DNA from: Lotus japonicus
Lineage: Eukaryota > Streptophyta > Magnoliopsida > Fabales > Fabaceae
Assembly: GCF_012489685.1 (NCBI RefSeq)
Contig: NC_080041.1
Location: forward strand, 26,277,780 to 26,341,779
Direction of reading: 5' to 3'
DNA length: 64,000 nucleotides
A program made the translations under genes and the position numbers. Below, in pieces: positions 11,038 to 62,378 of this stretch (position 1 is its first letter; each line of letters starts with the position of its first letter). Under the pieces are notes generated by a model. It was not told the origin of the DNA and searched no databases. It worked only from the letters and a program-made list of their open reading frames with translations.

Positions 11038-11090
11038 TCTTTTTTACTGAAAATTATTCGAGGTGTGAAGCTTACCTTTCTCTCCAACGC

Positions 11091-12677: not shown

Positions 12678-13420
12678 ATCTCCCCCTTTTTGATGATGAC
12701 AAAACTAAGATTTTTGATGAACAATTCTTAAACATTAAACTGAATTCACTCAGAGTTTAGAGATATAGAATAAGACTTATCCTGATGTGAATAGTTTATC
12801 TTGCTCATTCTGAATTCAAGTCACTGCTTGATTCTGAGCTTAGCTCCCCCTGAATCTAATACTTGATGAAAACGTTAGAAAAGTCTAGATTCTGAGCTAA
12901 AAAGTATAAGAGTTCAGAGTGAAAAGCTTATGACATAGATGAAAAACGAATAATCAGAGCGCATAAGTGATCAGAGTCATGGACAAGGTATCAGAGTCTT
13001 GGGTATCAGAGTCAACTTAGAATCACTTCAGAAGAAGTGAAATGTATTCCTTGTATTTGCCCAGTGACACATCTATGGTCATGAAGGTGGAACTCTTAAA
13101 ATCTCCAAAAGAAAAATAAGTCACACTAACACATCTTACAAATCAAAAACTGGGTTTACTCCCCCTTTTTGTCATAAGCAAAAAGCTTGGGGTGTGAAAA
13201 ACTTAGCTTGAAGTACAAGGTACTCCCCCTTAGAGAAGGTCTAAGTTTAAAAGAAAAGGAAAACGATGTAAGAATCAGAGTTAGGCGAAAATAAATAGAA
13301 GAGTTAATGCAAGGGATGAACGTTTACCACCGGTCAAGTGAGTAAATAGAAGGGTCAGTTACCAAGAACTTAACCTCGAGAAACTGTAAGAGCATTAACT
13401 TTCAGAGAGAAAGTGAAGCC

Positions 13421-13428
13421 TATAAAAA
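13421..13428 (+). promoter_or_regulatory. TATA box of antisense gene, copy B
   Basis: TATAAAAA inside CCTATAAAAAGC, 57 nt upstream of the ATG at 13478, matching the other copies. Confidence 0.65.
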
Positions 13429-13477
13429 GCGTTGGAGAGAAAGGTAAGCTTCACACCTCGAATAATTTTTAAAAAAA

Positions 13478-13870
13478 ATGGCATCATACAACGTAGCACT
13501 AGAAGAGCTGAGGAAGAAAGCCTTTGAAGAGGACTTGTTCCTGAACATCAGGCATCCAGAGGGTGCAACGACCATCGCGGAGCTGACACGGACACTGCTG
13601 GAAGAAGACCTGCGTCCAGAGTTGGAGAGAGACCTGAAGGAATTGCTTGCCTTCGTGGAGGAGGTGCAAGAACTCAGCCGGCTTGAACTCAAGCTGCTGG
13701 AAGAGAAAGAGAGTTTGGAAGAGAAGCTCAAGACTTCAGAAGAGATTCTGGAGAGGGATGAGCTAAAAGACAGGCTCAACAACGTCCAGTATGCACTGGA
13801 GCGTCTGGAGAAGGAGAGGTCAGAGCAGCGCCAGGAGTGTAGAAGAATGAGGAGAGATCCTCCATTCTAG
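13478..13870 (+). CDS. Antisense 130-aa coiled-coil protein, copy B
   Basis: Complete 130-codon ORF, antisense to element B, from MASYNVALEEL to MRRDPPF. AATAAA is at 13916-13921, 46 nt beyond the stop. It stays intact although B has lost most of pol. Against copy 0, I compared the first 55 codons: 19 differ silently and 12 change the amino acid, with no indels. That ratio indicates purifying selection since their common ancestor. The alternative reading frame on the other strand (13420-13782, Ser-rich) lacks a conserved counterpart in copy 0. Confidence 0.83.
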   Translation: MASYNVALEELRKKAFEEDLFLNIRHPEGATTIAELTRTLLEEDLRPELERDLKELLAFVEEVQELSRLELKLLEEKESLEEKLKTSEEILERDELKDRLNNVQYALERLEKERSEQRQECRRMRRDPPF

Positions 13871-14072
13871 ACTTTTTAGAGAAGTGATGTATGATGTAAA
13901 CACAAAAAGATTATGAATAAAACGAGATTTTTGCAAACATATGTGACACAAATATATATAAGGATATGCATATATAATCACAAACGAATAGAATAGAATA
14001 AGTAAATAAAAAGAAACAGAGTTTGAATAAAATAACGTGAAATAAAAAGAAGGAAAAAGAAGAGATCCTAAA

Positions 14073-16922
14073 CTAAGGTTTGTCAGTGCGTCGCAGAAGT
14101 TCCATCATCATTTGCTTCATCTCAATCAGCATGGATTCATGAGTGTCAAGACGTTGTTCCATGATGTCGAGTCTGGATGAGCTTGTCTGAGTAGAGCTGG
14201 AAGGAACATTCTGAGCAGCTTGAGGATCTGGAATGGAAGCAGAAGCAGCAGGAGTAAATACAACTGGTGCAAGTCGCTCTGCCTCAGCCTCAGCTTCAAG
14301 ACGCTCTGCCTCAAGTCTGGCTTGTTCAGCCTGAGCTGCTGCTTGACGTGCAGCTTCTTCTGCTTGTTCTTTCTTTCTCTTGGCTTCTTCAATAGCTTCA
14401 AGAAGCTTATTTCTCTGTTCTAATTCGTGAAGAGCCACCCTTCTAGCAAACCTTTGCTTTGCAGCCTCAATGCTCTGACTGCCCTCTGCATGCAGGAGCT
14501 GCATCATAATCGGAACTTGAGCCACTAGCCAAGTGCTCAGATTGTTCCACTCATCAGCCACATTTTCAGCATTCTCACTAAGATCAGTCTGACCGTGCAC
14601 ATTGCGGAGCCTCAAAGAGGCTTCATGATAGAAAATATTGATGCACTCAGAGAGAGATGTGGGTTGAAGGTGAGTATAGGGAATTATGGAGAGGTTGGGT
14701 TCAGGAGAGGCTGGGTGATTGCTGCTATGAGCTTCAGAGGCACCTTGTGGAGAACCAATGTTAATCATTGGAGCATTGGGTTCAGAGGTTCCAAGGTGAG
14801 GGTCTGAAGTTTCAACCAGAGGGTGAGGTGATCTAACCGAGGATTGGTTAGACACTGAATGTTCGGGTTCAGGGTCTGGTTGAATAGGCTCATGTTGGTC
14901 AGGGACAGGGTGAGCTTGTTGAACTAAGGGGTCTGCCTCTTGGATAGGATTGGCCAAGATAGGTTCATCTGGGTCAACTAGACGTTCAGGTCTAGGTCCA
15001 GGATATCTCCTAGGGCTTGGACAGGTAAGGTAATACTCTTCCAAGGCAGATACCTTTTCTTTTCTAACCTCCATGAATTTTCTAAGGGATTCAGAGTTAT
15101 TGGAGGGAGAAGAGTCAACAGTATTGATTGGGAAGGATACAGGTGTGAAGGCTGTTGATGAGTCTGTATCCGTGGTTCTGGCAGCAGGACGTTCTGATGC
15201 TCTGGGAGCAGAGTGATCAGACGTTCTGGGTTGTGGTTCTGTTTGGATTGGCTCTGGTTGGTCATGGATGATGGGTTCAGAAGATAATGGGTCGTACGGA
15301 ATGGTAATGAGAGAGGTTGGATCTTCTGACCTAGAGGTTGGGTTCTGAAGCAAATTCCAGAGAGGTGCTTCAGTAGGAGAAGGTTGAAAGAAGGAAGATC
15401 TTGGGGAATGTGGTGGAGAGGTGGTTTGTGCGGCTGGCTGGGATTCAGGAATAGGAGTGAGGGGATTTGAGGAGTGTTGGAGCAAGGCAGAAATAGGAAG
15501 TGCATCAAATAAATTCAAATCATCATCAGAAGCAAGTGCAGGCTTACTTGAATGTGCTGATGATCGAGTCACTCTGGCAGGAGGTTCAGTCCTTCTGACC
15601 ACTGCAGCAGCTGGTTCCACCCGAGTAGGCTTCACCACGATTCTGACTTTCTTCTTCTTCTTCTGGGGAGGACCATCCTCACTATCATCATCATCACCAT
15701 CATCAGGCTTTCTCTTCGTCTTCTTGACCTGAGGGACATCAGATTCCTCAGAAGATTCGTCCAGAACCATCTTCCTCTGAGCTTTCCTCTTGGGAGGAGA
15801 AGGAAACTCTGGAGCTGGTGGTAGTCTGCTGACGAAATCATCAAGGTCAATTTCGAAACCTTGAGCCCTGAGGTCTTCAACATAGCATCTGATGGCTTCA
15901 GGATGGTCTGCTTGTGTCCACAGAGGGTAGTCATTCAGAGGCATCCTTCTGCTTCTGATCTCAGAGGATGTGTCTTCACGAGCAGGAGCAATCTTCTTCT
16001 GGATTAAGCCCATCTTCTTCAAGGAGTTTGCAGTGAAGACATCACTGACAATTGTGCTCAAATCCTCTGTGCAACCGGCATTGATCAAATCTTGCACCAA
16101 GTTGCTTTCAATGAGAAAGTCTGAGAGCAGCCTCCCAAAAGGGATATATTTGATTGCAGACTTGATGGAGGCGGTGGTGCGAGACTTCCTGATGCATTCC
16201 TTCAAGTAGGAGAACAGGAAGTAGGGAAGGCAAATCTTCTCCTTGTCTTGAATGAAAAACAGCATCGCCTTCTGATTGAAGTTGATGTAATCTGGGGAAC
16301 TGCCCTTCGGTCTCTGATTGATGCAGTTGAGCAGGATCTTGTGCCAGATCCTGAGTTTGGGATGAAGATCCATCACCTTGTAACTCGTCTTGCCCGGTTT
16401 GAAGGTGGTGTACAGGGCCTTGTTGACTTTGTCTTTGGTGCTGGGTTTCAGCTTGGATTCCGTCAGTTGGAACCGATACCCATAAGCAGTTTCTGCTCCT
16501 AGCAGATTCACGAATGACTTCTCAGTGATGATGATCTTCCTGCCAAGAATATGAGAGACCACCTGAGTGTCATCGCAGTCTGCGTGCTTCCAGAATTCCT
16601 TGACCAACTTCTCATACACGGGTCCTCGAAGTCGGTTGAAATAATTTCCCCAACCTTGAGCTTGGACTTCAGGACGAAGATCAAACCCATTTGCAGCCAG
16701 GTTGTCGAGGTCGAATCTCCATTCTGCCAGGACTTGGAGTTCCTCAGGAGCAAATACGCAGTGAACGGCACAGCCCCGTTCTGCAATTGGAACAAACTGC
16801 TCTTGACCTTGAACTTGGACTTGTGCCGGGTTCTCAGAGCCCCTTTGACCCGTAGCCAAACCGACTACCATGTGAGGGAACTGAGGTGCATCTGCAGTAG
16901 ATCTTCTGGTTTGTCTCACCAT
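14073..16922 (-). CDS. ORF3 of element B, 949 aa
   Basis: Intact envelope-position ORF starting MVRQTRRS, with the same layout as in A: globular block at about 50-300, basic clusters near 375-420, a Pro/Ser/Thr-rich middle, a coiled coil near the C-terminus, and an end at RRTDKP. It differs from A by scattered substitutions and small in-frame indels, such as extra Asp codons in the acidic stretch near residue 410 and a shorter coiled coil. Retention of an open frame in a pol-deleted element suggests either a very recent deletion or mobilisation in trans. The start at 16922 is favoured because upstream sequence in B no longer supports the longer N-terminus seen in A and C. Confidence 0.85.
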   Translation of the reverse strand: MVRQTRRSTADAPQFPHMVVGLATGQRGSENPAQVQVQGQEQFVPIAERGCAVHCVFAPEELQVLAEWRFDLDNLAANGFDLRPEVQAQGWGNYFNRLRGPVYEKLVKEFWKHADCDDTQVVSHILGRKIIITEKSFVNLLGAETAYGYRFQLTESKLKPSTKDKVNKALYTTFKPGKTSYKVMDLHPKLRIWHKILLNCINQRPKGSSPDYINFNQKAMLFFIQDKEKICLPYFLFSYLKECIRKSRTTASIKSAIKYIPFGRLLSDFLIESNLVQDLINAGCTEDLSTIVSDVFTANSLKKMGLIQKKIAPAREDTSSEIRSRRMPLNDYPLWTQADHPEAIRCYVEDLRAQGFEIDLDDFVSRLPPAPEFPSPPKRKAQRKMVLDESSEESDVPQVKKTKRKPDDGDDDDSEDGPPQKKKKKVRIVVKPTRVEPAAAVVRRTEPPARVTRSSAHSSKPALASDDDLNLFDALPISALLQHSSNPLTPIPESQPAAQTTSPPHSPRSSFFQPSPTEAPLWNLLQNPTSRSEDPTSLITIPYDPLSSEPIIHDQPEPIQTEPQPRTSDHSAPRASERPAARTTDTDSSTAFTPVSFPINTVDSSPSNNSESLRKFMEVRKEKVSALEEYYLTCPSPRRYPGPRPERLVDPDEPILANPIQEADPLVQQAHPVPDQHEPIQPDPEPEHSVSNQSSVRSPHPLVETSDPHLGTSEPNAPMINIGSPQGASEAHSSNHPASPEPNLSIIPYTHLQPTSLSECINIFYHEASLRLRNVHGQTDLSENAENVADEWNNLSTWLVAQVPIMMQLLHAEGSQSIEAAKQRFARRVALHELEQRNKLLEAIEEAKRKKEQAEEAARQAAAQAEQARLEAERLEAEAEAERLAPVVFTPAASASIPDPQAAQNVPSSSTQTSSSRLDIMEQRLDTHESMLIEMKQMMMELLRRTDKP

Positions 16923-17364
16923 TTTGAAAGGTTGAAGGTTTGAGGTAGAAGATGAAGTTTGAAGGATGAAGAGAGATCGAGAGAGAAATCAAGAATGAGG
17001 CGGTTTTGAAAAGCAGAGAGTGCGAGAGTGAAAACCGGAAGTGAACGAGAACGTGTGTGTATAGTGGGTTTTATCAAATAACCGTTGTTGATTCAAAAAG
17101 CACTTTAAGATCAACGGTTGAAAATTAAAGATAGATAGTAACAGTAAAATACACAATCACACACAGGAGATAAGCATATCTACACGCAATCATAACAGAC
17201 TGTCACACGGGCACAAGGAATTATGCATCAGAAATTCTGACACACGTGTTGTTGTCTCAGCTTCAGAGTCAGTACCAGTGGGCACACACACTCTGATTGA
17301 GTTACCTTCTGGACTAGACATCTTCTGATCAAGAAGTATCATAGTCAGAGGTTCTGATCCATCT

Positions 17365-17876
17365 TCACTCTGGACAAAAGTCCATGTTTAGATTTTTCAG
17401 AATAAAATTAAATCTATCCTCTGCTAAGGGCTTTGTAAAGATATCTGCCCATTGATGGTCAGTATCAACAAACTTCAGAAGAAGTACGCCCTTCTGCACA
17501 TAATCTCTAATGAAGTGATACTTTACCTCAATGTGCTTTGCCCTTGAATGCAAGATAGGATTCTTGCTCAACGAGATTGCAGCAGTGTTATCACAATAAC
17601 ATCATAACCCTTGTCAGCTAATTGACTTATAGACAATAAGTTATGTGTTAAGCCGTCTACCAATAAAACATTATCAATGCATGGACTATTATCTACACAA
17701 ATAGTACCAGTACCAATAATTTTACCCTTTTCATTTCCTCCGAAGCCAACTTCGCCTCAAGGCTTAAGTTTCAGCTCTCGGAACATACGCTTTTCTCCCG
17801 TCATGTGACGCGAGCATCCACTGTCCAGATACCATGATTGGTGTTTAAGTGGAGCTATCAAGGATATCTGCAACAT
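17365..17876 (-). pseudogene. pol remnant of element B: protease fragment joined to RNase H tail
   Basis: Compared with C (31888-34992), B keeps about the first 95 codons, including protease [10 protein letters not shown], and the last about 75 codons (end of RNase H, to LNMDFCPE). Everything from 32117 to about 34713 of C is gone. The junction near 17604-17607 has ATA shared by both breakpoints, pointing to microhomology. The two parts are out of frame with each other, and the protease part has a TGA near 17757 where C has GGA. No functional pol product is possible. Confidence 0.9.
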
Positions 17877-19674
17877 AGATAATTTTGTCCTTAGGTACCC
17901 ACTTTCTGGGTCCTCTTTTGTTAGTTACCCCAGAGGTTCTGATCACCTTGGGTGTCTCAACATAATATTTAAAAGGAATATTTGCATGATATTTAGTCAT
18001 AGAGAAAGATCCCTTTTTAAGAGGATGTTTAGCAACTTTAGCAGGTACAGGATCAGGCAATATGGTACCAGAGGGAACAAAGCATTCATACAAGGATTTA
18101 GCTTTAGACACAGAAGGCTCATTTCTAATTGGTTTAGAATAGCCAATGCCATGCATTCCATTTCTGCTTACGCCATAGATCATTGAAGCCATTAAGCTTC
18201 TATCCACGCTTTTAGCTAGGAATCTTTGAAAAGACTTTTCATACTTAGATTCATTCCTACAATCAGAGGCATCACAGGCAACAATTTCTTCTAACTTAGC
18301 AATCTGGTTCTTAAGCACAGAGTTAGAATTTACCAAAGCATGATTTTCATTTTTCAAATCAGAAATAATTTTCTCATGTTCAGAAGGAGTCTTGGAGACA
18401 GCAGATAAGTTCTTTTTCAACTTTTTATGCTTAGACAATAAAGAGTTATACTTATCCATGATATCAGACAAAGCATGTTTCAGTTCAGAGGTAGAGAAAG
18501 AAGCAAATACCTCATTTTCATCGTCTGAGTTAGGATCTCCTTCTGATTCTGAGTCAGAGTCAACAGCTTCCTTTGACTCTGATCCTTTGTCTTTGACAAT
18601 GGCCATGAGTCCTTGGACTTCACCATCAGAGTCAACATCCTCTGACTCTGATTCATCGAATGTCACCATCAGACTCTTCTTGGTCTTGAAGTGCTTCTTT
18701 GGCTTCTTGTCTTTCTTCAACTTTGGACAATCACTTTTGTAGTGCCCAGATTCTTTGCACTCAAAACATGTGACCTCCTTGATTGAAGACTTCTTCTGGC
18801 CTGAGGACTCATACTTTCCTTTTGCCTTTCCAGAGCCTTTGAACTTGCTCTGCCTGTGCTTCCAGATGCGGTTGAGTCTCTTGGAGATCAGAGTCAGCTC
18901 ATCTTCATCAGAATCTTCTGATGCTTCTTCAGATTCTTCTTCTTCAGCTTGAAGAGCCTTTGACTTCTCAACCTTAGCCTTTTCAGATTTGGATTTCAAG
19001 GCTATGGACTTTTTCCTCAGATCTTGCATCTCTGAGCGTTTCAGCTCATGGCATTTCAAGATGCTGATGAGTTCTTCTAAACTTATATTCTCAACGTCTC
19101 TCGTGAGCTCTATTGAAGTCACCAAAGGCATCCAACTTTCAGGAAGACACCTGATGACCCTTATGACATGATCTTTTGTTGTGTAGCTCTTGTTGAGAGG
19201 TCGTATGCCAGCTACGAGCAATTGAAATCTGGAGAACATTTCTTCAATGGACTCATTTGGCTCCATGATGAAGGATTCATACTTTTGGATCAAAGACAAT
19301 GCCTTTGATTCTTTGACTTTCTTGTTTCCTTCATGAGACATCTTCAGAGAATCAAAAATGCCTTTAGCAAACTCACGATCTGTAATCTTCTGGTACTCCT
19401 CATAGGAAATAGCACTTAGAAGAATTGCTCTTGCTTTGTGATGTTGTGAGTACAGCTTCTTTTGATCTGCAGTCATCTCTGACCTTGGGATCTTCTTGCC
19501 ATCTGCATCAACTGGACGCTCATAGCCATCCACAATAATATCCCAGAGATCTGCATCGAAACCCAGAAAGAAACTTTCCAGTCTATCTTTCCAATATTCG
19601 AACCTTTGACCATCGAACATAGGAGGCTTTGCGTTGTAACCATCTCTTTGAGTTTCACTGGTGGTGGCAGCCAT
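17845..19674 (-). CDS. gag of element B, 609 aa (slightly truncated)
   Basis: A UBN2-type copia gag: the N-terminal capsid-like part ([13 protein letters not shown] at 20-32), a middle helical part (S-I-E-E-M-F-S-R-F), a CCHC zinc knuckle at about residue 303, then an acidic Ser/Asp/Glu region and a coiled-coil stretch. It ends at a premature TAA 27 codons before the gag stop of C, where a GAA codon of A and C has become TAA in the gag-pol overlap. The frame is otherwise unbroken and almost identical to C, so particle assembly could be retained. Confidence 0.88.
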   Translation of the reverse strand: MAATTSETQRDGYNAKPPMFDGQRFEYWKDRLESFFLGFDADLWDIIVDGYERPVDADGKKIPRSEMTADQKKLYSQHHKARAILLSAISYEEYQKITDREFAKGIFDSLKMSHEGNKKVKESKALSLIQKYESFIMEPNESIEEMFSRFQLLVAGIRPLNKSYTTKDHVIRVIRCLPESWMPLVTSIELTRDVENISLEELISILKCHELKRSEMQDLRKKSIALKSKSEKAKVEKSKALQAEEEESEEASEDSDEDELTLISKRLNRIWKHRQSKFKGSGKAKGKYESSGQKKSSIKEVTCFECKESGHYKSDCPKLKKDKKPKKHFKTKKSLMVTFDESESEDVDSDGEVQGLMAIVKDKGSESKEAVDSDSESEGDPNSDDENEVFASFSTSELKHALSDIMDKYNSLLSKHKKLKKNLSAVSKTPSEHEKIISDLKNENHALVNSNSVLKNQIAKLEEIVACDASDCRNESKYEKSFQRFLAKSVDRSLMASMIYGVSRNGMHGIGYSKPIRNEPSVSKAKSLYECFVPSGTILPDPVPAKVAKHPLKKGSFSMTKYHANIPFKYYVETPKVIRTSGVTNKRGPRKWVPKDKIIYVADILDSST

Positions 19675-19730
19675 TGTTTTTCACACCGGCCCGGATCACT
19701 GAACACTGTTAGGTGTGGTAATCAGAACTT

Positions 19731-19744
19731 GCGCTCTGATACCA
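19731..19744 (-). other. Primer-binding site of element B
   Basis: Reads TGGTATCAGAGCGC on the minus strand, two bases inside the 5' LTR boundary. Complementary to initiator tRNA-Met. Confidence 0.9.
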
Positions 19745-19746
19745 AT

Positions 19747-21025
19747 TGAAGGTATGAAAAACGGTAGAAAGGGGGGGTTTGAATAACGTTTTCAGAACAA
19801 AACTTCCACCTTAAAGATTTTGACAAATCTTTCGAGAACTTAAGTGCTAAAGATAAGAGATAGAAAAGCACACAAGTATTTTATCCTGGTTCACTTGATA
19901 AATCCCTCAAGCTAATCCAGTCCACCCGTTAAGGTGATTTCTTCCTTCTTAGAATGAAGGCAATCCACTAATCAGATAATTGTTACAACTGCACTTAAAA
20001 CCTACAAGTGACTAACAATACACTGACTTAGCTATCACTAAGATTCACTCTCTTAGTCTTCTCTAGAATCCGATCAACCTTGATCTCCTAAAGGAATCAC
20101 CACTAAGATTCACTCTCTTAGTCTTCTTAAGGATACTGACCTACCCGGTCCCTTAAGGAAAATCAAACAACTGTTTGAGGTTGGTGTTTACAAAGGTTTA
20201 CTTATAAATAAGCTGAGTGTAAACTAAATAAGAACAGATGAAAGAAAGCTTAGAATATTTTGAATATGTCTTGCGCGTGTGAATGCTTCTTAGTTTCTTC
20301 TTAGCCGCTTCTTTCAATCTTCAGCCTCTATATATACTCCAAGGATTAGGGTTGAGCGTTGCATGGGAAATGCTACCGTTGGAGGGCAGTTCTGGAAAAT
20401 CCAGCTTCTGCTGTGGCTGAGAACGTTAGGTAGGTCGTCAGGAAGGTACACTTGCTTTTGTACTTGGATAGCGACTTGACCTTTTAACCTAGGAGACTTC
20501 TGATCAGGGGAATACTTCATATTGGAACTTGTGAAGCCGGTTGATCAGAGTCAGAGGGAAAGCACAGATCCTCTGACCATTGTATCTTCTGATTCTGAAC
20601 TCAGAGGGAAGAACATGGCCTTCAGAGTTTCTTGCTTCTGGACTTCAGAGTTTCCACTATTCAGCTTCTGGATCTTCAGAGTCTTCTACACCATCAGAAC
20701 ATCTGAACCTTCAGTGTTTCTTGGTTATCAGAACTTCTGGATCTTCAGAGCTTCTAGCGACTGAGTCCACATCAGAGTTTGTATAGCTTCAGAACTTCTG
20801 AAGCTTTTCCACTGTTCATACTGAACATGGTGAATGCGAAAGCGTTGCTTGGGTTACCCTTTATACACAGTGCTTCTGATTTGTGTGAGATTGAGTTGAG
20901 GTCAGAGCCTGTAAATAGCACACTCAGAAAAACACGTTAGAGTACCACAATTGTTCATATCAAAAGGTTAACTTGTAATCATCAAAACATAGAGTTGTAC
21001 TACTAGATCAAAACTTGATCTTACA
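19747..21025 (-). repeat. 5' LTR of element B
   Basis: 1279 bp, the same length as the partner at 11399-12677 and different at about ten sites by eye. It ends at TTACA, followed by TSD TTAGT at 21026-21030. Confidence 0.95.
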
Positions 21026-26169: not shown

Positions 26170-27380
26170 TGAAGGTATGAAAAACGGTAGAAAGGGGGGG
26201 GGGTTTGAATAACGTTTTCAGTACAAAACTTACACCTTAAAGATTTTGACAAATCTTTCGAGAACTTAAGTGCTACAGATAAGAGATAGAGAAGCACACA
26301 AGGATTTTATCCTGGTTCACTTGATAAATCACTCAAGCTACTCCAGTCCACCCGTTAAGGTGATTTCTTCCTTCTTAGAATGAAGGCAATCCACTAATCA
26401 GGTAAGAGTTACAACTGCACTTGAAACCTACAAGTGACTAACAATTACACTAACTTAGCTCACACTAAGATTCACTCTCTTAGTCTTCTCTAGGATCCGA
26501 TCAACCTTGATCTCCTAAAGGAACTAAACAAACTGTTTATCAAAGAAATGTTTACAAGAGATTTGCTTCTAAAAAGCTAATAGTAAACTCAATGAATTTC
26601 AGATGAAAGAAAGCTTGGAATTTTTGAATATGTCTTGCGTATGTGAATGTTTCTTCTCGCCGCTTCTTTCAATCTTCAGCCTCTATATATACTCCAAGGA
26701 TTAGGGTTGAGCGTTGCATGGGAAATGCTACCGTTGGAGGGCAGTTCTGGAAAATCCAGCTTCTGCTGTGGCTGAGAACGTTAGGTAGGTCGTCAGGAAG
26801 GTACACTTGCTTTTGTACTTGGATAGCGACTTGACCTTTTAACCTAGGAGACTTCTGATCAGGGGAATACTTCATATTGGAACTTGTGAAGCCGGTTGAT
26901 CAGAGTCAGAGGGAAAGCACAGATCCTCTGACCATTGTATCTTCTGATTCTGAACTCAGAGGGAAGAACATGGCCTTCAGAGTTTCTTGCTTCTGGACTT
27001 CAGAGTTTCCACTATTCAGCTTCTGGATCTTCAGAGTCTTCTACACCATCAGAACATCTGAACCTTCAGTGTTTCTTGGTTATCAGAACTTCTGGATCTT
27101 CAGAGCTTCTAGCGACTGAGTCCACATCAGAGTTTGTATAGCTTCAGAACTTCTGAAGCTTTTCCACTGTTCATACTGAACAAGGTGAATGCGAAAGCGT
27201 TGCTTGGGTTACCCTTTATACACAGTGCTTCTGATTTGTGTGAGATTGAGTTGAGGTCAGAGCCTGTAAATAGCACACTCAGAAAAACACGTTAGAGTAC
27301 CACAATTGTTCATATCAAAAGATTAACTTGTAATCATCAAAACATAGAGTTGTACTTCTCGATCAAAACTTGATCTTACA
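26170..27380 (-). repeat. 3' LTR of element C
   Basis: 1211 bp, from TGAAGG to TTACA on the plus strand, followed by the PPT complement at 27381-27394. It has a longer G run near 26193-26202 than the partner LTR. Confidence 0.95.
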
Positions 27381-27394
27381 ATCTCCCCCTTTTT
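27381..27394 (-). other. PPT of element C
   Basis: AAAAAGGGGGAGAT on the minus strand, touching the 3' LTR. This is the primer for plus-strand DNA synthesis. Further PPT-like runs occur at about 27548-27556, 27862-27876 and 27927-27936. Confidence 0.88.
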
Positions 27395-28128
27395 GATGAT
27401 GACAAAACTAAAAATTTTTGATGAACAATTCTTAACCATTAAACTGAATTCACTCAGAGTTTAGAGATATAGAATAGGACTTATCCTGATGTGAATAGTT
27501 TATCTTGCTCATCCTGAATTCAAGTCACTGCTTGATTCTGTGCTTAGCTCCCCCTGAATCTAATACTTGATGACAACGTTAGTAAAGTCTAGATTCTGAG
27601 CTAAATAATATAAGAGTTCAGAGTGAAAAACTTATGACATAGATGAAAAACGAATAATCAGAGCGCATAAGTGATCAGAGTCATGGACAAGGTATCAGAG
27701 TCTTGGGTATCAGAGTCAACTTAGAATTACTTCAGAAGAAGTGAAATGTATTCCTTGTATTTGCCCAGTGACACATCTATGGTCATGAAGGTGGAACTCT
27801 TAAAATCTCCAAAAGAAAAATAAATCACACTAACGCATCTTACACATCAAAAACTGGGTTTACTCCCCCTTTTTGTCATAAGCAAAAAGCCTGGGGTGTG
27901 AAAAACTTAGCTTGAAGTACAAGGTACTCCCCCTTAGAGAAGGTCTAAGTTTAAAGAAAACGAAAACGAAAACGATGTAAGAATCAGAGTCAGGCGAACT
28001 AAATAAAAGAGTTAATGCAAGGGATGAACGTTTACCACCGATCAAGTGAGTAAATAGAAGGGTCAGTTACCAAGAACTTAACCTCGAGAAACTGTAGGAG
28101 CATTAACTTGCAGAGAGAAAGTGAAGCC

Positions 28129-28136
28129 TATAAAAA
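28129..28136 (+). promoter_or_regulatory. TATA box of antisense gene, copy C
   Basis: TATAAAAA inside CCTATAAAAAGC, 61 nt upstream of the ATG at 28190. The surrounding 100 bp, including an ACCGATCAAG/ACCGGTCAAG block further up, is strongly conserved among A, B and C. Confidence 0.65.
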
Positions 28137-28189
28137 GCGTTGGAGAGAAAGGTAAGCTTCACACCTCGAATAATTTTCAGTAAAAAAGA

Positions 28190-28582
28190 ATGGCATCATA
28201 CAACGTAGCACTAGAAGAGCTGAGGAAGAAGGCCTTTGAAGAGGACTTGTTCCTGAACATCAGGCATCCAGAGGGTACAACGACCATCTCGAAGCTAACA
28301 CGGACATTGCTGGAAGAGAACCTGCGTCCAGAGTTGGAGAGAGACCTGAAGGAATTTCTTGCCTTCGTGGAGGAGGTGCAAGAACTCAGCCGGCTTGAAC
28401 TCAAGCTGCTGGAAGAAAAAGAGTGTTTGGAAGAGAAGCTCAAGACTTCAGAAGAGATTCTGGAGAGGGATGAGCTAAAGAACAGGCTCAGCAACATCCA
28501 GCATGAACTGGAGCGTCTGGAGAAAGATAGGTCAGAGCAGCGCCAGGAGTGCAGAAGAATGAGGAGAGATCCTCCATTCTAG
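28190..28582 (+). CDS. Antisense 130-aa coiled-coil protein, copy C
   Basis: Complete ORF antisense to element C, MASYNVALEEL to MRRDPPF. AATAAA at 28628-28633 gives a compact transcription unit of about 0.5 kb (TATA to poly(A) signal). That unit ends before the facing ORF3 stop at 28787, so the two coding regions converge without overlap. Only a few residues differ from A and B (for example Lys for Glu near residue 35 and Glu for Val near 107). The helical part is rich in Leu at heptad spacing with Glu/Lys/Arg between, suggesting an oligomerising coiled coil. No known family recognised. Confidence 0.83.
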   Translation: MASYNVALEELRKKAFEEDLFLNIRHPEGTTTISKLTRTLLEENLRPELERDLKEFLAFVEEVQELSRLELKLLEEKECLEEKLKTSEEILERDELKNRLSNIQHELERLEKDRSEQRQECRRMRRDPPF

Positions 28583-28786
28583 ACTTTTTAGAGAAGTAAT
28601 GTATGATGTAAACATAAAAAGATTATGAATAAAACGAGTTTAGCAAACATATGTGGCACAAGTAAATAGATATGCATATATAATCACAAACGAACAAATT
28701 AAAAAGAATAAGTAAATAAAAAAGAAACAGAGTTTAATCAAAATAAAAACAAAGTTAACGAAAAAGAAAAAGAAGAGATCCTAAAA

Positions 28787-31444
28787 CTAAGGTTTGTCAG
28801 TGCGTCGCAGAAGTTCCATCATCATGTGCTTCATCTCAATCAGCATGGATTCATGAGTGTCAAGACGTTGTTCCATGATGTCGAGTCTGGATGAGCTTGG
28901 CTGAGTAGAACTGGAAGGAACATTCTGAGCAGCTTGAGGATCTGGAATGGAAGCAGAAGCAGCAGGAGTAAACACAACTGGTGCAAGTGCTTGGCATCTA
29001 AGAGCTTCAGCCTCAGCTTCAAGTCGCTCTGCCTCAAGTCTGGCTTGTTCAGCTTGAGCTGCTGCCTGACGTGCAGCTTCTTCTGCTTGTTCTTTCTTTT
29101 TCTTGGCTTCTTCAATAGCTTCGAGAAGCTTATTTCTCTGTTCTTGTTCATGAAGAGCCACCCTTCGAGCAAACCTTTGCCTTGCAGCCTCAATGCTCTG
29201 ACTTCCCTCTGCATGCAGGAGCTGCATCATAATTGGAACTTGAGCCACTAGCCAAGTGCTCAGATTGTTCCACTCATCAGCCACACTTTCAGCATTCTCA
29301 CTGAGGTCAGTCTGACCGTGCACATTGCGGAGCCTCAAGGAGGCTTCATGATAGAAAATATTGATGCACTCAGAGAGAGAGGTGGGTTGAAGATGAGTAT
29401 AGGGAATTATGGAGAGGTTGGTTTCAGGAGAGGCTGGGTGATTGCTGCTATGAGCTTCAGAGACACCTTGTGGAGAACCAATGTTAATTATAGGAGCATT
29501 GGGTTCAGAGGTTCCAAGGTGGGGGTCTGAAGTTTCAACCAGAGGATGAGGTGATCTAACCGAGGATTGGTTAGACACTGAATGTTCGGGTTCAGGTTCT
29601 GGTTGAATAGGCTCTTGTTGGTTGGGGACATGGTGAGCTTGTTGAACCAAGGGGTCTGCCTCTTGTAAAGGATTAGCCAAGATAGGTTCATCTGGGTCTA
29701 CTAGACGTTCAGGTCTAGGGCCAGGATATCTCCTAGGGCTTGGACAGGTTAGGTAATATTCTTCCAAGGCAGACACCTTTTCTTTTCTAACCTCCATGAT
29801 GGGTTCAGAGGATAATGGGTCGTATGGAATGGTGAGGAGAGAGGTTGGTTCTTCTAACCTAGAGGGTTGGTTCTGAAGCAAATTCCAGAGAGGTGCTTCA
29901 GTAGGAGAAGGTTGAAAGAAGGAAGATCTTGGGGAATGTGGTGGAGTGGTGGTTTGTGCGGCTGGCTGGGATTCAGGAATAGGAGTGAGGGGATTGGAGG
30001 AGTGTTTGAGCATAGCAGAAATAGGGAGTGCATCAAATAAATTCAAATCATCATCAGAAGCAAGTGCAGACTTACTTGAATGTGCTGATGATCGAGTCAC
30101 TCTGGCAGGAGGTTCAGTCCTTCTGACCATTTCAGCAGCTGGTTCCACCCGAGTAGGCTTCACCACGATTCTGACCTTCTTCTTCTTCTTCTTTGGAGGA
30201 CCATCCTCACTATCATCACCATCATCAGGCTTTCTCTTTGTCTTCTTGACCAGAGGGACATCAGATTCCTCAGAAGATTCGTCCAGAACCATCTTCCTCT
30301 GAGCTTTCTTCTTGGGAGGAGAAGGAAACTCTGGAGCTGGTGGTAGTCTGCTGACGAAATCATCAAGGTCAATTTCGAATCCTTGAGCCCTTAGATCTTC
30401 AACATAGCATCTGATGGGGTCAGGATTGTCTGCTTGAGTCCACAGAGGGTAGTCATTCAGAGGCATTCTTCTTCCTCTGATCTCAGAAGATGTGTCTTCA
30501 TGAGCAGGAGCAATCTTCTTCTGGACCAAACCCATCTTCTTCAGAGAATTTGCAGTGAAGACATCACTGACAATGGTGCTCAAATCCTCAGTGCAACCAG
30601 CATTGATCAAATCTTGCACCAAGTTGCTTTCAATGAGAAAGTCTGAGAGCAGCCTCCCAAAAGGGATGTATTTGATTGCAGACTTGATGGAGGCGGTGGT
30701 GCGGGACTTCCGGATGCATTCCTTCAAGTAGGAGAACAGGAAGTAGGGAAGGCAGATCTTCTTCTGATTTTGGATGAAGAACAACATCGCCTTCTGGTTG
30801 AAGTTGATGTAGTCTGGGGAACTGCCCTTCGGTCTCTGGTTTATGCAGTTGAGCAGGATCTTGTGCCAGATCCTGAGTTTGGGGTGAAGATCCATCACCT
30901 TGTAACTCGTCTTGCCCGGTTTGAAGGTGGTGTACAGAGCCTGATTGACTATGTCCTTGGTGCTGGGTTTCAGCTTCGATTCCGTCAGTTGGAACCGATA
31001 CCCATAAGCAGTTTCTGCACCTAGCAAATTCACGAATGACTTCTCCATGATGATGATCTTCCTGCCAAGAATGTGAGAGACCACTTGAGTATCATCGCAG
31101 TCTGCGTGCTTCCAGAATTCCTTTACCAGTTTCTCATACACCGGTCCTCGAAGTCGGTTGAAGTAATTTCCCCAACCTTGAGCTTGGACTTCAGGACGAA
31201 GATCAAACCCATTTGCAGCCAAGTTGTCGAGGTTGAATCTCCATTCTGCCAGGACTTGGAGTTCCTCAGGAGGATAAACACAGTGAACGGCACAGCCCCG
31301 TTCTGCAATTGGAACACTCTGTTCTTGAGCTTGAACTTGATCTTGAGTTGGATTCTCAGAGCCCCTTTGACCCGTTGCTAGACCAACTACCATGTGAGGG
31401 AACTGAGGTGCATCTGCAGTAGATCTTCTGGTTTGTCTCACCAT
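28787..31444 (-). CDS. ORF3 of element C, 885 aa, with in-frame deletion
   Basis: Envelope-position ORF as in A and B. The conserved start MVRQTRRS is at 31444; the frame is open further up to 31600. The N-terminal globular block, basic clusters and C-terminal coiled coil are all present. Compared with A, 65 residues (195 nt) of the Pro/Ser/Thr-rich middle are missing between S-S-E-P-I and M-E-V-R-K. A CAT shared by both breakpoints suggests microhomology. The reading frame is kept, so the disordered linker appears tolerant of length change while the terminal domains are conserved. Confidence 0.85.
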   Translation of the reverse strand: MVRQTRRSTADAPQFPHMVVGLATGQRGSENPTQDQVQAQEQSVPIAERGCAVHCVYPPEELQVLAEWRFNLDNLAANGFDLRPEVQAQGWGNYFNRLRGPVYEKLVKEFWKHADCDDTQVVSHILGRKIIIMEKSFVNLLGAETAYGYRFQLTESKLKPSTKDIVNQALYTTFKPGKTSYKVMDLHPKLRIWHKILLNCINQRPKGSSPDYINFNQKAMLFFIQNQKKICLPYFLFSYLKECIRKSRTTASIKSAIKYIPFGRLLSDFLIESNLVQDLINAGCTEDLSTIVSDVFTANSLKKMGLVQKKIAPAHEDTSSEIRGRRMPLNDYPLWTQADNPDPIRCYVEDLRAQGFEIDLDDFVSRLPPAPEFPSPPKKKAQRKMVLDESSEESDVPLVKKTKRKPDDGDDSEDGPPKKKKKKVRIVVKPTRVEPAAEMVRRTEPPARVTRSSAHSSKSALASDDDLNLFDALPISAMLKHSSNPLTPIPESQPAAQTTTPPHSPRSSFFQPSPTEAPLWNLLQNQPSRLEEPTSLLTIPYDPLSSEPIMEVRKEKVSALEEYYLTCPSPRRYPGPRPERLVDPDEPILANPLQEADPLVQQAHHVPNQQEPIQPEPEPEHSVSNQSSVRSPHPLVETSDPHLGTSEPNAPIINIGSPQGVSEAHSSNHPASPETNLSIIPYTHLQPTSLSECINIFYHEASLRLRNVHGQTDLSENAESVADEWNNLSTWLVAQVPIMMQLLHAEGSQSIEAARQRFARRVALHEQEQRNKLLEAIEEAKKKKEQAEEAARQAAAQAEQARLEAERLEAEAEALRCQALAPVVFTPAASASIPDPQAAQNVPSSSTQPSSSRLDIMEQRLDTHESMLIEMKHMMMELLRRTDKP

Positions 31445-31887
31445 TTTGAAGAGGTTGAAGGTTTGAGGTAGAAGATGAAGGTTGAAAGATGAAGAGAGAT
31501 CGAGAGAGAATTCGAGAAAAAGGCGGTTTTGAAAAGCAGAGAGAGCTAGAGTGAAAACCGGAAGTGAAAGAGAACGTGTGTGTATAGTGGGTTTTATCAA
31601 ATAACCGTTGTTGATTCAAAAAGCACTTTAAGATCAACGGCTGAAAATTAAAGATAGATAGTAACAGTAAAATACACAATCACACACAGGAGATAAGCAT
31701 ATCTACACGCAATCATAACAGACTGTCACACGGGCACAAGGAACTATGCATCAGAAATTCTGACGCACGTGTTATTGTCTCAGCTTCAGAGTCAGTACCA
31801 GTGGGCACACACACTCTGATTGAGTTACCTACTGGACTAGACATCTTCTGATCAAGAAGTATCATAGTCAGAGGTTCTGATCCATCT

Positions 31888-34800
31888 TCACTCTGGACAA
31901 AAGTCCATGTTTAGATTTTTCAGAATAAAATTAAATCTATCCTCTGCTAAGGGCTTTGTAAAGATATCTGCCCATTGATGGTCAGTATCAACAAACTTCA
32001 GAAGAAGTACGCCCTTCTGTACATAATCTCTAATAAAGTGATACTTTACCTCAATGTGCTTTGCCCTTGAATGTAGGATAGGATTCTTACTCAATGAGAT
32101 TGCAGCAGTGTTATCACAATAGATTGGGATATTGCTCTCAAGGATCTGATAATCCTCCAGCTGATGTTTCATCCAGAGCATCTGAGTGCTGCATATTGCT
32201 GCTGAGATATATTCTGCTTCTGCAGTTGATAGTGCAATGGTTGATTGCCTCTTGCTTGCCCATGAGACTAGATTGCTTCCCAGAAATTGACAATTTCCGG
32301 AAGTACTTTTTCTCTCTGTTCTATCTCCAGCATAATCAGCATCACAATAACCTGAAAGCTTATACTCTGATGTTTTCTTATACATCAAGCCAAGGTTAGT
32401 GGTGCCTTTCAGATACCTTAGGATCCTCTTAACAGCAGTTAAGTGGGTTTCCCTTGGATCTGATTGGAATCGAGCACATAAATGAACACTAAATAATATG
32501 TCTGGCCTAGATGCAGTTAAGTATAGAAGTGAACCTATCATGCCACGATAGAGCTTCTGACATACTTTACCACTTTTATCTTCTTTCTCCAGAATGCATG
32601 TAGGATGCATTGGAGTCTTGGCCACTGTAGATTCCAGCATATTGAACTTCTTCAGAAGTTCTTTAGTGTACTTGCTCTGATGGATATATGTTCCTTCTGG
32701 TGTTTGATCAACTTGTATTCCCAGAAAGTACTTTAATTCTCCCATCATACTCATCTCAAATTCAGCCTGCATCATCTCAGAAAATTCTTTGCATAGAGAT
32801 TGATTAGCAGAACCAAATATAATATCATCAACATAAATTTGCACAATTAGGATATCATCTTTATAAGTCTTGCAAAAAAGAGTTGTATCTACTTTACCCC
32901 TTACAAACTTATTCTCCAGAAGGAATGAGCTAAGTCTCTCATACCATGCTCTGGGAGCTTGCTTCAGACCGTAGAGTGATTTCTTCAATTTGAACACATG
33001 GTCTGGTTTCTTTTCATCTTCAAAACCTGGGGGTTGATGAACATAGACTTCCTCTGAGATATAACCGTTTAGGAAGGCACTCTTTACGTCCATCTGATGT
33101 AGAACTATGTTGTGATTTACTGAGAAAGAGATCAACAGTCTGATTGCTTCCAGTCTTGCTACTGGAGCAAATGTTTCAGTGTAGTCTATTCCTTCCTGCT
33201 GGCTGTAGCCTTGAGCAACTAGCCTTGCCTTATTTCTGACTACATCTCCTTTCTCATTCAGCTTGTTTCTGAATACCCATTTCGTTCCAATAACATGGAC
33301 ACTCTCAGGCTTCTTCACTAAGCTCCAAACATCGTTCTTGGAAAATTGATTCAATTCTTCTTCCATGGCCAGAATCCAATCCTTGTCCTGAAGAGCTTCA
33401 TCTATGGACTTGGGTTCAATTAAGGACACCAATCCTTTCAGACTCAGCAAGGTCTCTTCAGAGGGTCTGAAGGCAGATCTGGTTCTGACTGGTTCGTCTT
33501 TGTTGCCTAGAATCAATTCCTTAGGGTGAGCTGCAGTGATTCTGCTCTTCTTCAGAGTTTGTGAGTTAGAGGGACCAGCTTCTTCCTCTGGTTCATCTTC
33601 CTCTGGCTCAACTTCCTCTGGAGCTTTGCCTTTGTCAGAAACATTAATGCTTAAATCTGCAAACTTTTCAACTAGCTTTGACTGGTCAGAGTCAAGCTTA
33701 TCATCAAATCTAACATGAATAGATTCTTCAATAGTCTTAGCATCAGTATTATAAAATCTAAAACCTTTAGATCTATCAGAATAACCAAGTAATAGACACT
33801 TAGAAGACTTAGCATCAAATTTATGCAATCTATCCTTAGTATTGAGAACATAACAAACACAGCCAAAAGGATGAAAATAAGAAATGTTGGGTTTTATGTT
33901 CTTCCACAATTCATAAGGAGTCTTATTCAGAATTGGTCTCACAGAGATTCTGTTCTGAATGTAACATGCTGTATTTACTGCCTCTGCCCAAAAATGCTTA
34001 GCCATGCCAGTTTCTTGGAGCATGGTTCTAGCCATCTCCTGAAGAGTTCTGTTCTTCCTCTCAACAACACCATTTTGTTGAGGAGTTATGGGACAAGAGA
34101 AATCATGTGCAATTCCATAGGAATCAAACAGACTCTCAAACTTGTCATTCTCAAACTCTCCACCATGGTCACTTCTGACACGCACAATCCTACAAGCCTT
34201 CTCGTTTTGCACTTGAGCAATGAAGGTAGAGAACACAGCATGAGACTCATCCTTGCGGGTTAGAAACTTTACCCATGTCCAGCGGCTATAGTCATCAACG
34301 ATAACCATCCCATATCTCTTGCCACCTATAGACTTAGTTTTCACTGGTCCAAAAAGGTCGATATGCAGAAGTTCCAACGGCCTTGAGGTTGAGACAACAT
34401 TCTTTGCCTTGAAAGAGACTTTTGTGAATTTGCCTTTCTGACATGCTTCACAAAGAGCGTCTGAAGCGAACTTCAGATTGGGTAAGCCCCTGACAAGGTT
34501 TAGCTTGCTCAGCTGAGAAATCTTTCTCATACTGGCATGCCCTAACCGTCTATGCCATACCCACTGCTCTTCATTAACAGACAGAAGGCACTTCACATTC
34601 TGAGCCTCCAACTCAGATAATTTGATCTTATAGATGTTGTTCTTCCTCTTGCTGTTAAATAGAATAGAGCCATCGATCTGACTTACAGCCCGGCAGGACT
34701 TTTGATTGAATATAACATCATAACCCTTGTCAGCTAATTGACTTATAGACAATAAGTTATGTGTTAAGCCGTCTACCAATAAAACATTATCAATGCATGG

Positions 34801-34992
34801 GCTACTATCTACACAAATAGTACCAGTACCAACAATTTTACCCTTTTCATTTCCTCCGAAGCCAACTTCGCCTCCAGGCTTAAGTTTCAGCTCTCGGAAC
34901 ATACGCTTTTCTCCCGTCATGTGACGCGAGCATCCACTGTCCAGATACCATGATTGGTGTTTCAGTGGAGCTATCAAGGATATCTGCAACAT
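31888..34992 (-). CDS. pol of element C, 1034 aa, intact
   Basis: Domains in order: aspartic protease with D18-S-G; integrase zinc finger with H147, H152, C181 and C184; integrase core with D212, D275 and E311 (35 residues between the last two); an acidic linker near 455-475; RT with YVDD at 720-723; RNase H with D884, E925 and D960; and the C-terminal ADIFTKPL motif near 1008-1015. The order protease-integrase-RT-RNase H is that of Ty1/copia. All catalytic residues seen are present. It overlaps the end of gag (34880) by 113 nt in the +1 frame relative to gag, so expression would need a frameshift or another recoding event; the ATG at 34992 is only where the open frame first has Met. Confidence 0.95.
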
Positions 34993-36790
34993 AGATAATC
35001 TTGTCCTTAGGTACCCACTTTCTGGGTCCTCTTTTGTTAGTTACCCCAGAGGTTCTGATCACCTTGGGTGTCTCAACATAATATTTTAAAGGAATTTTTG
35101 CATGATATTTAGTCATAGAGAAAGATCCCTTTTTAAGAGGATGTTTAGCAACTTTAGCAGGTACAGGATCAGGCAATATGGTACCAGAGGGAACAAAGCA
35201 TTCATACAAGGATTTAGCTTTAGACACAGAAGGCTCATTTCTAATTGGTTTAGAATAGCCAATGCCATGCATTCCATTTCTGCTTACGCCATAGATCATT
35301 GAAGCCATTAAGCTTCTATCCACGCTTTTAGCTAGGAATCTTTGAAAAGACTTTTCATACTTAGATTCATTTCTACAATCAGAGGCATCACAGGCAACAA
35401 TTTCTTCTAACTTAGCAATCTGGTTCTTAAGCACAGAGTTAGAATTTACCAAAGCATGATTTTCATTTTTCAAATCAGAAATAATTTTCTCATGTTCAGA
35501 AGGAGTCTTGGAGACAGCAGATAAGTTCTTTTTCAACTTTTTATGCTTAGACAATAAAGAGTTATACTTATCCATGATATCAGACAAAGCATGTTTCAGT
35601 TCAGAGGTAGAGAAAGAAGCAAATACCTCATTTTCATCGTCTGAGTTAGGATCTCCTTCTGATTCTGAGTCAGAGTCAACAGCTTCCTTTGACTCTGCTC
35701 CTTTGTCTTTGACAATGGCCATGAGTCCTTGGACTTCACCATCAGAGTCAATATCCTCTGACTCTGATTCATCGAATGTCACCATCAGACTCTTCTTGGT
35801 CTTGAAGTGCTTCTTTGGCTTCTTGTCTTTCTTCAACTTTGGACAATCACTTTTGTAGTGCCCAGATTCTTTGCACTCAAAACATGTGACTTCCTTGATT
35901 GAAGACTTCTTCTGGCCTGAGGACTCATACTTGCCTTTTGCCTTTCCAGAGCCTTTGAACTTGCTCTGCCTGTGCTTCCAGATGCGGTTGAGTCTCTTGG
36001 AGATCAGAGTCAGCTCATCTTCATCAGAATCTTCTGATGCTTCTTCAGATTCTTCTTCTTCAGCTTGAAGAGCCTTTGACTTCTCAACCTTAGCCTTTTC
36101 AGATTTGGATTTCAAGGCTATGGACTTTTTCCTCAGATCTTGCATCTCTGAGCGCTTCAGCTCATGACATTTCAAAATGCTGATGAGTTCTTCTAAACTC
36201 ATATTCTCAACGTCTCTCGTGAGCTCTATTGAAGTCACCAAAGGCATCCAACTTTCAGGAAGACACCTGATGACTCTTATGACATGATCTTTTGTTGTGT
36301 AGCTCTTGTTGAGAGGTCGTATGCCAGCTACAAGCAATTGAAATCTGGAGAACATTTCTTCAATGGATTCATTTGGCTCCATGATGAAGGATTCATACTT
36401 TTGGATCAAAGACAATGCCTTTGATTCTTTGACCTTCTTGTTTCCTTCATGAGACATCTTCAGAGATTCAAAAATGCCTTTAGCAAACTCACGATCTGTA
36501 ATCTTCTGGTACTCTTCATAGGAAATAGCACTTAGAAGAATTGCTCTTGCTTTGTGATGTTGTGAGTACAGCTTCTTTTGATCTGCAGTCATCTCTGACC
36601 TTGGGATCTTCTTGCCATCTGCATCAACTGGACGCTCGTAGCCATCCACAATAATATCCCAGAGATCTGCATCGAAACCCAGAAAGAAACTTTCCAGTCT
36701 ATCTTTCCAATATTCGAACCTTTGACCGTCGAACATAGGAGGCTTTGCATTGTAACCATCTCTTTGAGTTTCACTGGTGGTGGCAGCCAT
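34880..36790 (-). CDS. gag of element C, 636 aa, intact
   Basis: Structural protein of the virus-like particle. The N-terminus [13 protein letters not shown] is followed by the UBN2-type capsid region at about residues 17-235. There is a Glu/Ser-rich charged stretch (about 235-262) and a CCHC zinc knuckle starting at C303 (C-X2-C-X4-H-X4-C). Next are a basic segment and an acidic Asp/Ser/Glu region at about 340-400. A helical stretch (about 405-480) and a C-terminal basic region close it. It is unusually long for copia gag, as in other Sireviruses. The start lies just downstream of the PBS. Confidence 0.95.
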
Positions 36791-36846
36791 TTTTTTTCAC
36801 ACCGGCCCGGATCACTGAACACTGTTAGGTGTGGTAATCAGAACTT

Positions 36847-36860
36847 GCGCTCTGATACCA
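36847..36860 (-). other. Primer-binding site of element C
   Basis: TGGTATCAGAGCGC on the minus strand, two bases from the 5' LTR. Initiator tRNA-Met type. Confidence 0.92.
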
Positions 36861-36862
36861 AT

Positions 36863-38071
36863 TGAAGGTATGAAAAACGGTAGAAAGGGGGGGTTTGAAT
36901 AACGTTTTCAGTACAAAACTTCCACCTTAAAGATTTTGACAAATCTTTCGAGAACTTAAGTGCTAAAGATAAGAGATAGAGAAGCACACAAGGATTTTAT
37001 CCTGGTTCACTTGATAAATCACTCAAGCTACTCCAGTCCACCCGTTAAGGTGATTTCTTCCTTCTTAGAATGAAGGCAATCCACTAATCAGGTAAGAGTT
37101 ACAACTGCACTTGAAACCTACAAGTGACTAACAATTACACTGACTTAGCTCACACTAAGATTCACTCTCTTAGTCTTCTCTAGGATCCGATCAACCTTGA
37201 TCTCCTAAAGGAACTAAACAAACTGTTTATCAAAGAAATGTTTACAAGAGATTTGCTTCTAAAAAGCTAATAGTAAACTCAATGAATTTCAGATGAAAGA
37301 AAGCTTAGAATTTTTTGAATATGTCTTGCGTATGTGAATGTTTCTTCTCACCGCTTCTTTCAATCTTCAGCCTCTATATATACTCCAAGGATTAGGGTTG
37401 AGCGTTGCATGGGAAATGCTACCGTTGGAGGGCAGTTCTGGAAAATCCAGCTTCTGCTGTGGCTGAGAACGTTAGGTAGGTCGTCAGGAAGGTACACTTG
37501 CTTTTGTACTTGGATAGCGACTTGACCTTTTAACCTAGGAGACTTCTGATCAGGGGAATACTTCATATTGGAACTTGTGAAGCCGGTTGATCAGAGTCAG
37601 AGGGAAAGCACAGATCCTCTGACCATTGTATCTTCTGATTCTGAACTCAGAGGGAAGAACATGGCCTTCAGAGTTTCTTGCTTCTGGACTTCAGAGTTTC
37701 CACTATTCAGCTTCTGGATCTTCAGAGTCTTCTACACCATCAGAACATCTGAACCTTCAGTGTTTCTTGGTTATCAGAACTTCTGGATCTTCAGAGCTTC
37801 TAGCGACTGAGTCCACATCAGAGTTTGTATAGCTTCAGAACTTCTGAAGCTTTTCCACTGTTCATACTGAACAAGGTGAATGCGAAAGCGTTGCTTGGGT
37901 TACCCTTTATACACAGTGCTTCTGATTTGTGTGAGATTGAGTTGAGGTCAGAGCCTGTAAATAGCACACTCAGAAAAACACGTTAGAGTACCACAATTGT
38001 TCGTATCAAAAGATTAACTTGTAATCATCAAAACATAGAGTTGTACTTCTCGATCAAAACTTGATCTTACA
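36863..38071 (-). repeat. 5' LTR of element C
   Basis: 1209 bp. TATATATA at 37375-37382 is the candidate promoter for the genomic RNA. It ends TTACA at 38071 and is followed by ACCAC. Confidence 0.95.
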
Positions 38072-61317: not shown

Positions 61318-61344
61318 AACTCCAGTGTTACAATATTATTCTTG
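61318..61344. other. Palindrome spacer
   Basis: 27 bp between the perfect inner arms. A short spacer of this kind favours hairpin extrusion and hairpin RNA if transcribed. Confidence 0.8.
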
Positions 61345-61810: not shown

Positions 61811-61818
61811 GGTATTTG
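61811..61818. repeat. MITE target-site duplication (GGTATTTG)
   Basis: GGTATTTG at 61811-61818 and again at 62559-62566. The left palindrome arm has the uninterrupted site (reversed, near 60812-60820). Confidence 0.95.

Positions 61819-62331: not shown

Positions 62332-62378
<47 letters not shown>

Follow-up and report, generated by a model that had tools for sequence, protein, structure and literature searches.

Additional open reading frames (ORFs) occur in most lineages of LTR retrotransposons according to a 2025 review (PMC12786077), and the plant examples in antisense orientation include Grande, RIRE2, Retand and PvRetro13 (Vicient and Casacuberta, PMC7264820). In Ty3/gypsy, such aORF-3R genes are known from maize (Grande gene23), rice (RIRE2), Silene (Retand) and bean (PvRetro13 and 14 further families), and in most copies they lie antisense in the interval between pol and the 3' LTR (PMC7264820; PMC4093653), as does the ORF described here; the initial annotation of this locus had pointed to such Ty3/gypsy genes correctly. 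Grande gene23 is reported to have its own promoter and a nuclear product (PMC7264820; PMC4093653). Their carriers are Ty3/gypsy, whereas ours is Copia, and it is by published description that the present protein is set apart from those of Grande, RIRE2 and PvRetro13. In bean, all 15 families with antisense ORFs were reported as Ty3/gypsy, the extra ORFs of two Copia families are not opposite-oriented, and the antisense ORFs encode 211-939 residues (PMC4093653), compared with 130 here.

For the lineage and region considered here, the described extra gene is a sense one (env-like, eORF-3'F), and the present element also carries a sense ORF3, from which the antisense 130-residue ORF differs. According to Neumann et al., 74% of SIRE elements have an extra ORF in sense orientation, a count limited to ORFs of at least 250 codons (PMC6317226). 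Small or antisense extra genes are easily overlooked, and a 130-codon antisense ORF would be missed at the threshold of that main plant survey. Sunflower Athila 14 has a similar arrangement, with a sense 3'aORF(+) of 487 residues containing PF20167 and a small antisense ORF(-), but it is a Ty3/gypsy element and its ORF(-) has 70 residues and a transmembrane helix (PMC11728184), whereas the protein here has 130 residues and lacks a hydrophobic stretch. HTLV-1 HBZ and HTLV-2 APH-2 are antisense accessory proteins of a retroviral LTR element (comparison in PMC11963269) and serve as an analogy only.

Antisense promoters have been cited in other retrotransposons, including Arabidopsis AtRE1 (PMC7264820). 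Antisense transcription as such is therefore not new. AtRE1 is a Copia element. No described equivalent of the antisense gene in Copia elements or Sireviruses was found in the literature searched, most subscription papers lying outside its scope, which is consistent with the earlier statement that none was known. The roles of plant retrotransposon extra genes are described as not known (PMC7264820).

The antisense ORF and its carrier element

The window analysed here, a 64-kb stretch of Lotus japonicus DNA, contains four copies (0, A, B and C) of one LTR retrotransposon family within its first 38 kb (Table 1). In each copy, the interval from ORF3 to the 3' LTR contains an ORF of exactly 130 codons on the strand opposite to gag-pol. 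The distance from the TATA box to the ATG is 57-61 nt and that from the stop to AATAAA is 45-56 nt; the start context is favourable in every copy, with A at -3 and G at +4. This combination of TATA box, 130 codons and AATAAA in four of four copies had been noted in the initial annotation and was confirmed in full, apart from the minimum TATA-to-ATG distance, given there as 52 nt; the coordinates were also correct, with the qualification that 663 is the far end of the copy 0 TATA box.

Table 1. Positions, in window coordinates, of the antisense ORFs, their signals and the carrier elements
Feature	Position	Strand	Details
Copy C antisense ORF, 130 aa	28190..28582	+ (element C on -)	From ORF list and dN/dS
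Copy C TATA box TATAAAAA	28129..28136	+	61 nt before ATG
Copy C AATAAA poly(A) signal	28628..28633	+	45 nt after stop
Copy B antisense ORF, 130 aa	13478..13870	+	TATA 13421-13428, AATAAA 13916-13921
Copy A antisense ORF, 130 aa	10645..11037	-	TATA 11098-11091, AATAAA 10599-10594
Copy 0 antisense ORF (divergent sublineage), 130 aa	219..611	-	TATA 670-663 (TATATAAA), AATAAA 162-157
Linker from antisense gene to 3' LTR (presumed antisense promoter region)	27381..28128	.	Four AGGGGGAG polypurine tracts on - strand: 27934, 27870, 27555, 27390
Element C	26170..38071	-	5-bp target duplication ACCAC; LTRs 26170-27380 and 36863-38071, ~1.2 kb
gag of C, 636 aa	34880..36790	-	Retrotran_gag_2, zinc knuckle
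pol of C, 1034 aa	31888..34992	-	rve, RVT_2 copia type
ORF3 of C, 885 aa	28787..31444	-	PF20167 below cut-off (41.6 versus 45 bits)
Element B, nested in A (+ strand)	11399..21025	-	5-bp target duplications TTAGT
Copy 0, 3' end of element	1-1405 region, window edge beside 100-N gap	+	5' end outside window

Chance expectation differs among these features. An antisense-strand ORF of at least 130 codons appeared in two of 2000 Markov-simulated linkers of 1405 nt. The motif TATA[AT]A[AT] fell within a 75-nt upstream window in about 4% of 5000 simulations, while AATAAA arose within 120 nt in about 65%, so that the poly(A) signal by itself is weak evidence. Among the 37 ATG-started ORFs of at least 100 residues in the window, nine have a TATA motif 25-100 nt upstream and seven have AATAAA within 120 nt; six have both, and four of those six are the antisense ORFs.

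The carrier appears to be a Sirevirus, as the initial annotation had suggested, an assignment made by four motif tests from the published description (Bousios et al., PMC2829016) together with copia-type Pfam domains rather than by an RT tree. The junction of the 5' LTR with the primer-binding site (PBS), CA-ATTGG-TATCAGAGC (CAATTGGTATCAGAGC junction), occurs at 2173 (A), 19748 (B) and 36864 (C). The terminal polypurine tract (PPT) AGGGGGAG is followed by AT and the TG of the LTR, giving AGGGGGAGATTG at 12687 (B), 21469 (A) and 27390 (C); in copy 0 this sequence is not exact. Identical PPTs are clustered near the 3' LTR: each linker of A, B and C has four, copy 0 has three exact ones, and elsewhere in the window the octamer occurs only at 24107 and 41562, outside these elements. 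In A, B and C a polyC-rich integrase signal, AAACCCCCCCTTTCTACCG, lies some 15-30 nt short of the end of the 5' LTR, as judged by eye against the published description. The CpG observed/expected ratio of the C 3' LTR is 0.39, taken as one average overall rather than by CGG-CCG motifs; some Sireviruses are described as lacking LTR CpG/CGG-CCG boxes (PMC2829016).

The LTR pairs differ at 10 of 1280 positions in B and six of 1209 in C, and since they are nearly identical both insertions look young. In ORF3 the highest 19-residue hydropathy mean is 1.12 (C) or 1.25 (A), so that a crude test detects no transmembrane segment and the label 'envelope-like' is positional only. ORF3 carries polybasic (poly-lysine) clusters that look like nuclear signals. 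Element B lacks, at 17596-17598, the counterpart of C 32121-34712 (most of the pol integrase-RT region) and retains gag, ORF3 and the antisense ORF. The gag and pol frames of C overlap at 34880-34992 in different reading frames.

Selection on the frame and relatives in other sources

Copies A, B and C are 95-98% identical to one another in DNA sequence and 75-76% identical to copy 0, with 93-97 differences per 390 positions in the antisense ORF. Because the copies share kinship, only copy 0 offers a near-independent test of the frame, which the frame passes. In the antisense frame, dN/dS for copy 0 is 0.163 against A, 0.161 against B and 0.138 against C, compared with 1.0-1.5 in the other two frames of the same strand; synonymous sites are nearly saturated in these comparisons (dS 1.0-1.2). 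The differences between copies 0 and C fall 22/19/56 on codon positions 1/2/3, each with 130 sites (χ2 26, p 2e-6). Amino-acid changes number 39 against C and 37 against B, where permutation gives a mean of 59-60, and none of the 2000 permutations in each of three copy 0 runs had as few; only 1.7-11% of the permuted frames were free of stops. The 39 replacements between copies 0 and C have BLOSUM62 scores that are positive in 24 cases, zero in six and negative in nine. Judged by the comparison with copy 0, the antisense frame is coding and under purifying selection.

With copies as close as A, B and C, the permutation test is without power and selection is not visible: dN/dS of the antisense ORF is 0.42 (B-C), 0.51 (A-B) and 0.36 (A-C, eight differences), and B and C differ by 12 amino-acid changes against 13.1 expected, with 761 of 2000 permutations equally low. 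For the other genes, dN/dS is 0.15-0.16 (B versus A and C) and 0.42 (A-C, 19 differences) in ORF3, which is under purifying selection, 0.11 in gag (B-C) and 0.47 in pol (A-C). In comparisons involving B the antisense ORF thus appears less constrained than ORF3 or gag (0.42-0.51 versus 0.11-0.16); for the A-C pair its value is similar to those of ORF3 and pol.

Three protein searches with the antisense protein, the second of which scored the 7999 candidates sharing most words, returned seven proteins. Five span 100% of the query (129-130 residues), namely P0001 (93% identity), P0002 (79%), P0005 (60%), P0006 (55%) and P0007 (45%); P0003 and P0004 are shorter pieces. The nine full-length sequences show one single-residue length difference: the four copies, P0001 and P0002 align without indels, and one residue separates them from P0005-P0007 (P0003 and P0004 left out). 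Conservation is highest in residues 1-27, in a central stretch and in the tail at the C terminus, ECRx[ML]Rx[DN]PPF. All seven come from short contigs, the longest of 1102 bases. Public databases assign P0001 and P0004, on contigs of 561 and 483 bases, to a Bradyrhizobium strain, and this label probably reflects contamination with plant DNA; the strain's name appears in three papers, two of them with abstracts on isolates or bacteria from sorghum roots. Searches of viral contigs and of bacterial and archaeal genome contigs gave no confirmed relative of the antisense protein or of ORF3. By these alignments the frame is conserved beyond the L. japonicus genome, in relatives known from short contigs without host plant, element or strand context. 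The initial annotation had proposed a protein-coding antisense gene and a homologue search with its 130-residue product; the dN/dS values of 0.14-0.16 with copy 0, the permutations and the relatives elsewhere bear out that reading, and the five full-length relatives place a conserved frame in other sources.

Copy 0 itself is a mosaic. Its alignment with C has 30 mismatches in 782 columns from the LTR to about 28177 and 159 in 607 beyond, with a linker like that of A, B and C joined to an antisense ORF and adjoining sequence from a divergent sublineage, with the breakpoint near C 28177. The natural reading would be a template switch between two sublineages during minus-strand synthesis, just before the ATG. 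As the TATA box and 5' region of copy 0 are near-identical to the others through this breakpoint, they are recently shared sequence and not independent evidence for a promoter. Downstream of the stop, the flank aligned with copy 0 contains 48 gap columns for C and 35 for B; in the alignment with C, 165 of 189 aligned columns are identical, against a shuffled mean identity of 67%. A constrained 3' end or a second breakpoint may account for only part of the contrast between this low divergence and the nearly saturated synonymous sites of the ORF.

The 130-residue protein

The antisense protein is acidic (33 D/E versus 25 K/R) and rich in leucine and glutamate, and has no hydrophobic stretch, its highest 19-residue hydropathy mean being 0.63. 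A structure model from 10 sequences has a mean pLDDT of 78.9 and a pTM of 0.64, the five models ranging from 67.5 to 78.9. Long helices are predicted at residues 47-86 and 90-126, while those at 2-15, 18-22 and 33-41 are short and less certain; pLDDT is 92-95 for residues 71-110, 55-66 for residues 1-30 and 68 for the last ten. Two stretches of heptad periodicity stand out in a crude score, in agreement with the two long helices. The model suggests a soluble protein in which a short helical segment at the N terminus precedes a helical hairpin.

A search of Pfam with the copy C protein gave no match at E<=0.1. At E<=1 the 10 members matched 14 families, with best E values of 0.018-0.44 and none matched by more than two members; Transposase_28 (PF04195), the domain of the Retand-type antisense protein TRP28, is absent from these 14 families and none of the 10 members matches it. 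A Cucumovirus 2b identity, indicated by one member at E 0.11, was not counted. A search of PDB sequences yielded no relative, with five matches at E values of up to 10 and 0.039 as the best E, and Rfam gave no match in the window at gathering thresholds. A tblastn search of the window with the protein recovered the four copies and one eight-residue match (E 6.7). Origin from a coiled coil of ORF3 or Gag was considered and rejected, since all BLASTP matches to the copy C proteins were short or coil-like (best E 0.019, with composition correction off).

Interpretation and alternatives

We infer that the antisense gene is transcribed, translated and endowed with a molecular role, and we propose, with a probability of about 0.75, that it serves this Copia/Sirevirus family as an accessory gene and forms an antisense transcription unit of its own. 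Transcription would start from a promoter in the linker, run away from the LTR in the direction opposite to gag-pol and terminate at the gene's own AATAAA. A sense-oriented internal poly(A) signal endangers genomic RNA, as in retroviral vectors; a poly(A) signal in antisense orientation would be unable to truncate it, and the gene would still be copied at every retrotransposition. The product would most likely act in the replication of the element, through self-association or through contact with element or host proteins; an enzyme is less likely. Our tentative guess is that it serves as an adaptor for, or regulates, the function of the particle, Gag or ORF3; control of the LTR and control of silencing are the next candidates, each of them rather unlikely.

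It is conceivable that the significant quantity here is the antisense RNA, which would pair with genomic RNA and regulate the element via dsRNA/siRNA or interference. The antisense unit would fall entirely inside the genomic RNA, and dsRNA and interference by antisense retrotransposon RNAs are described in reviews (PMC7264820; PMC12786077), but an RNA role predicts neither an excess of third-position differences, nor a stop-free frame of constant length, nor protein relatives down to 45% identity. We consider it improbable that RNA matters instead of the protein; it could have a role in addition. A second alternative sees the ORF as a by-product of a gene on the opposite strand, where sense ORFs of 106 residues (28497-28177 and 10730-11050) overlap it in C and A and where one frame has a lowered dN/dS with copy 0 (0.24-0.27). 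Such lowering is expected because the third positions of the two frames face each other. The lowest dN/dS with copy 0 belongs to the antisense frame, no sense ORF of at least 100 residues is listed in B or copy 0, all opposite frames are interrupted by one or more stops in every copy, and the protein relatives came from the antisense-frame query, the only frame used as query. A by-product is therefore very hard to credit.

Composition raises a different question, namely whether the gene is a captured host gene or the remnant of a nested element, carried as a passive passenger. Its GC3, 0.63 in each of A, B and C but 0.53 in copy 0, exceeds that of the three sense genes of element C (gag, pol and ORF3, 0.39-0.44), and it has promoter-like and poly(A) signals of its own. 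Purifying selection between sublineages and the same location in all four copies speak against a passive passenger, as does the lack of any Pfam or PDB relative in the searches above, and we regard this explanation, too, as improbable, although capture is possible as the origin of the gene.

If a selected 130-residue antisense gene in a Sirevirus is accepted, antisense accessory genes are not confined to Ty3/gypsy elements. More speculatively, and with less than even odds, the family may have a two-way Sirevirus genome, in which the product of a dedicated antisense gene, unrelated to any family with a name, is a conserved accessory protein of helical structure on which efficient replication or resistance to silencing depends; this would be the first antisense-encoded accessory protein in Ty1/copia, parallel to the retroviral antisense regulators. 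The protein is compact, conserved and assayable, and its ECRx[ML]Rx[DN]PPF ending provides a signature for finding others.

Two further observations concern the surrounding sequence. In the linker, GGTATCAGAG occurs twice on the antisense strand at 27691-27715; it is possible that sense RNA near the 3' end could pair with the PBS (cyclisation), or that GGTATCAGAG is part of a TCAGAG-rich repeat. At 59353-63757 the window contains a large imperfect inverted duplication with arms that are 83-88% identical.
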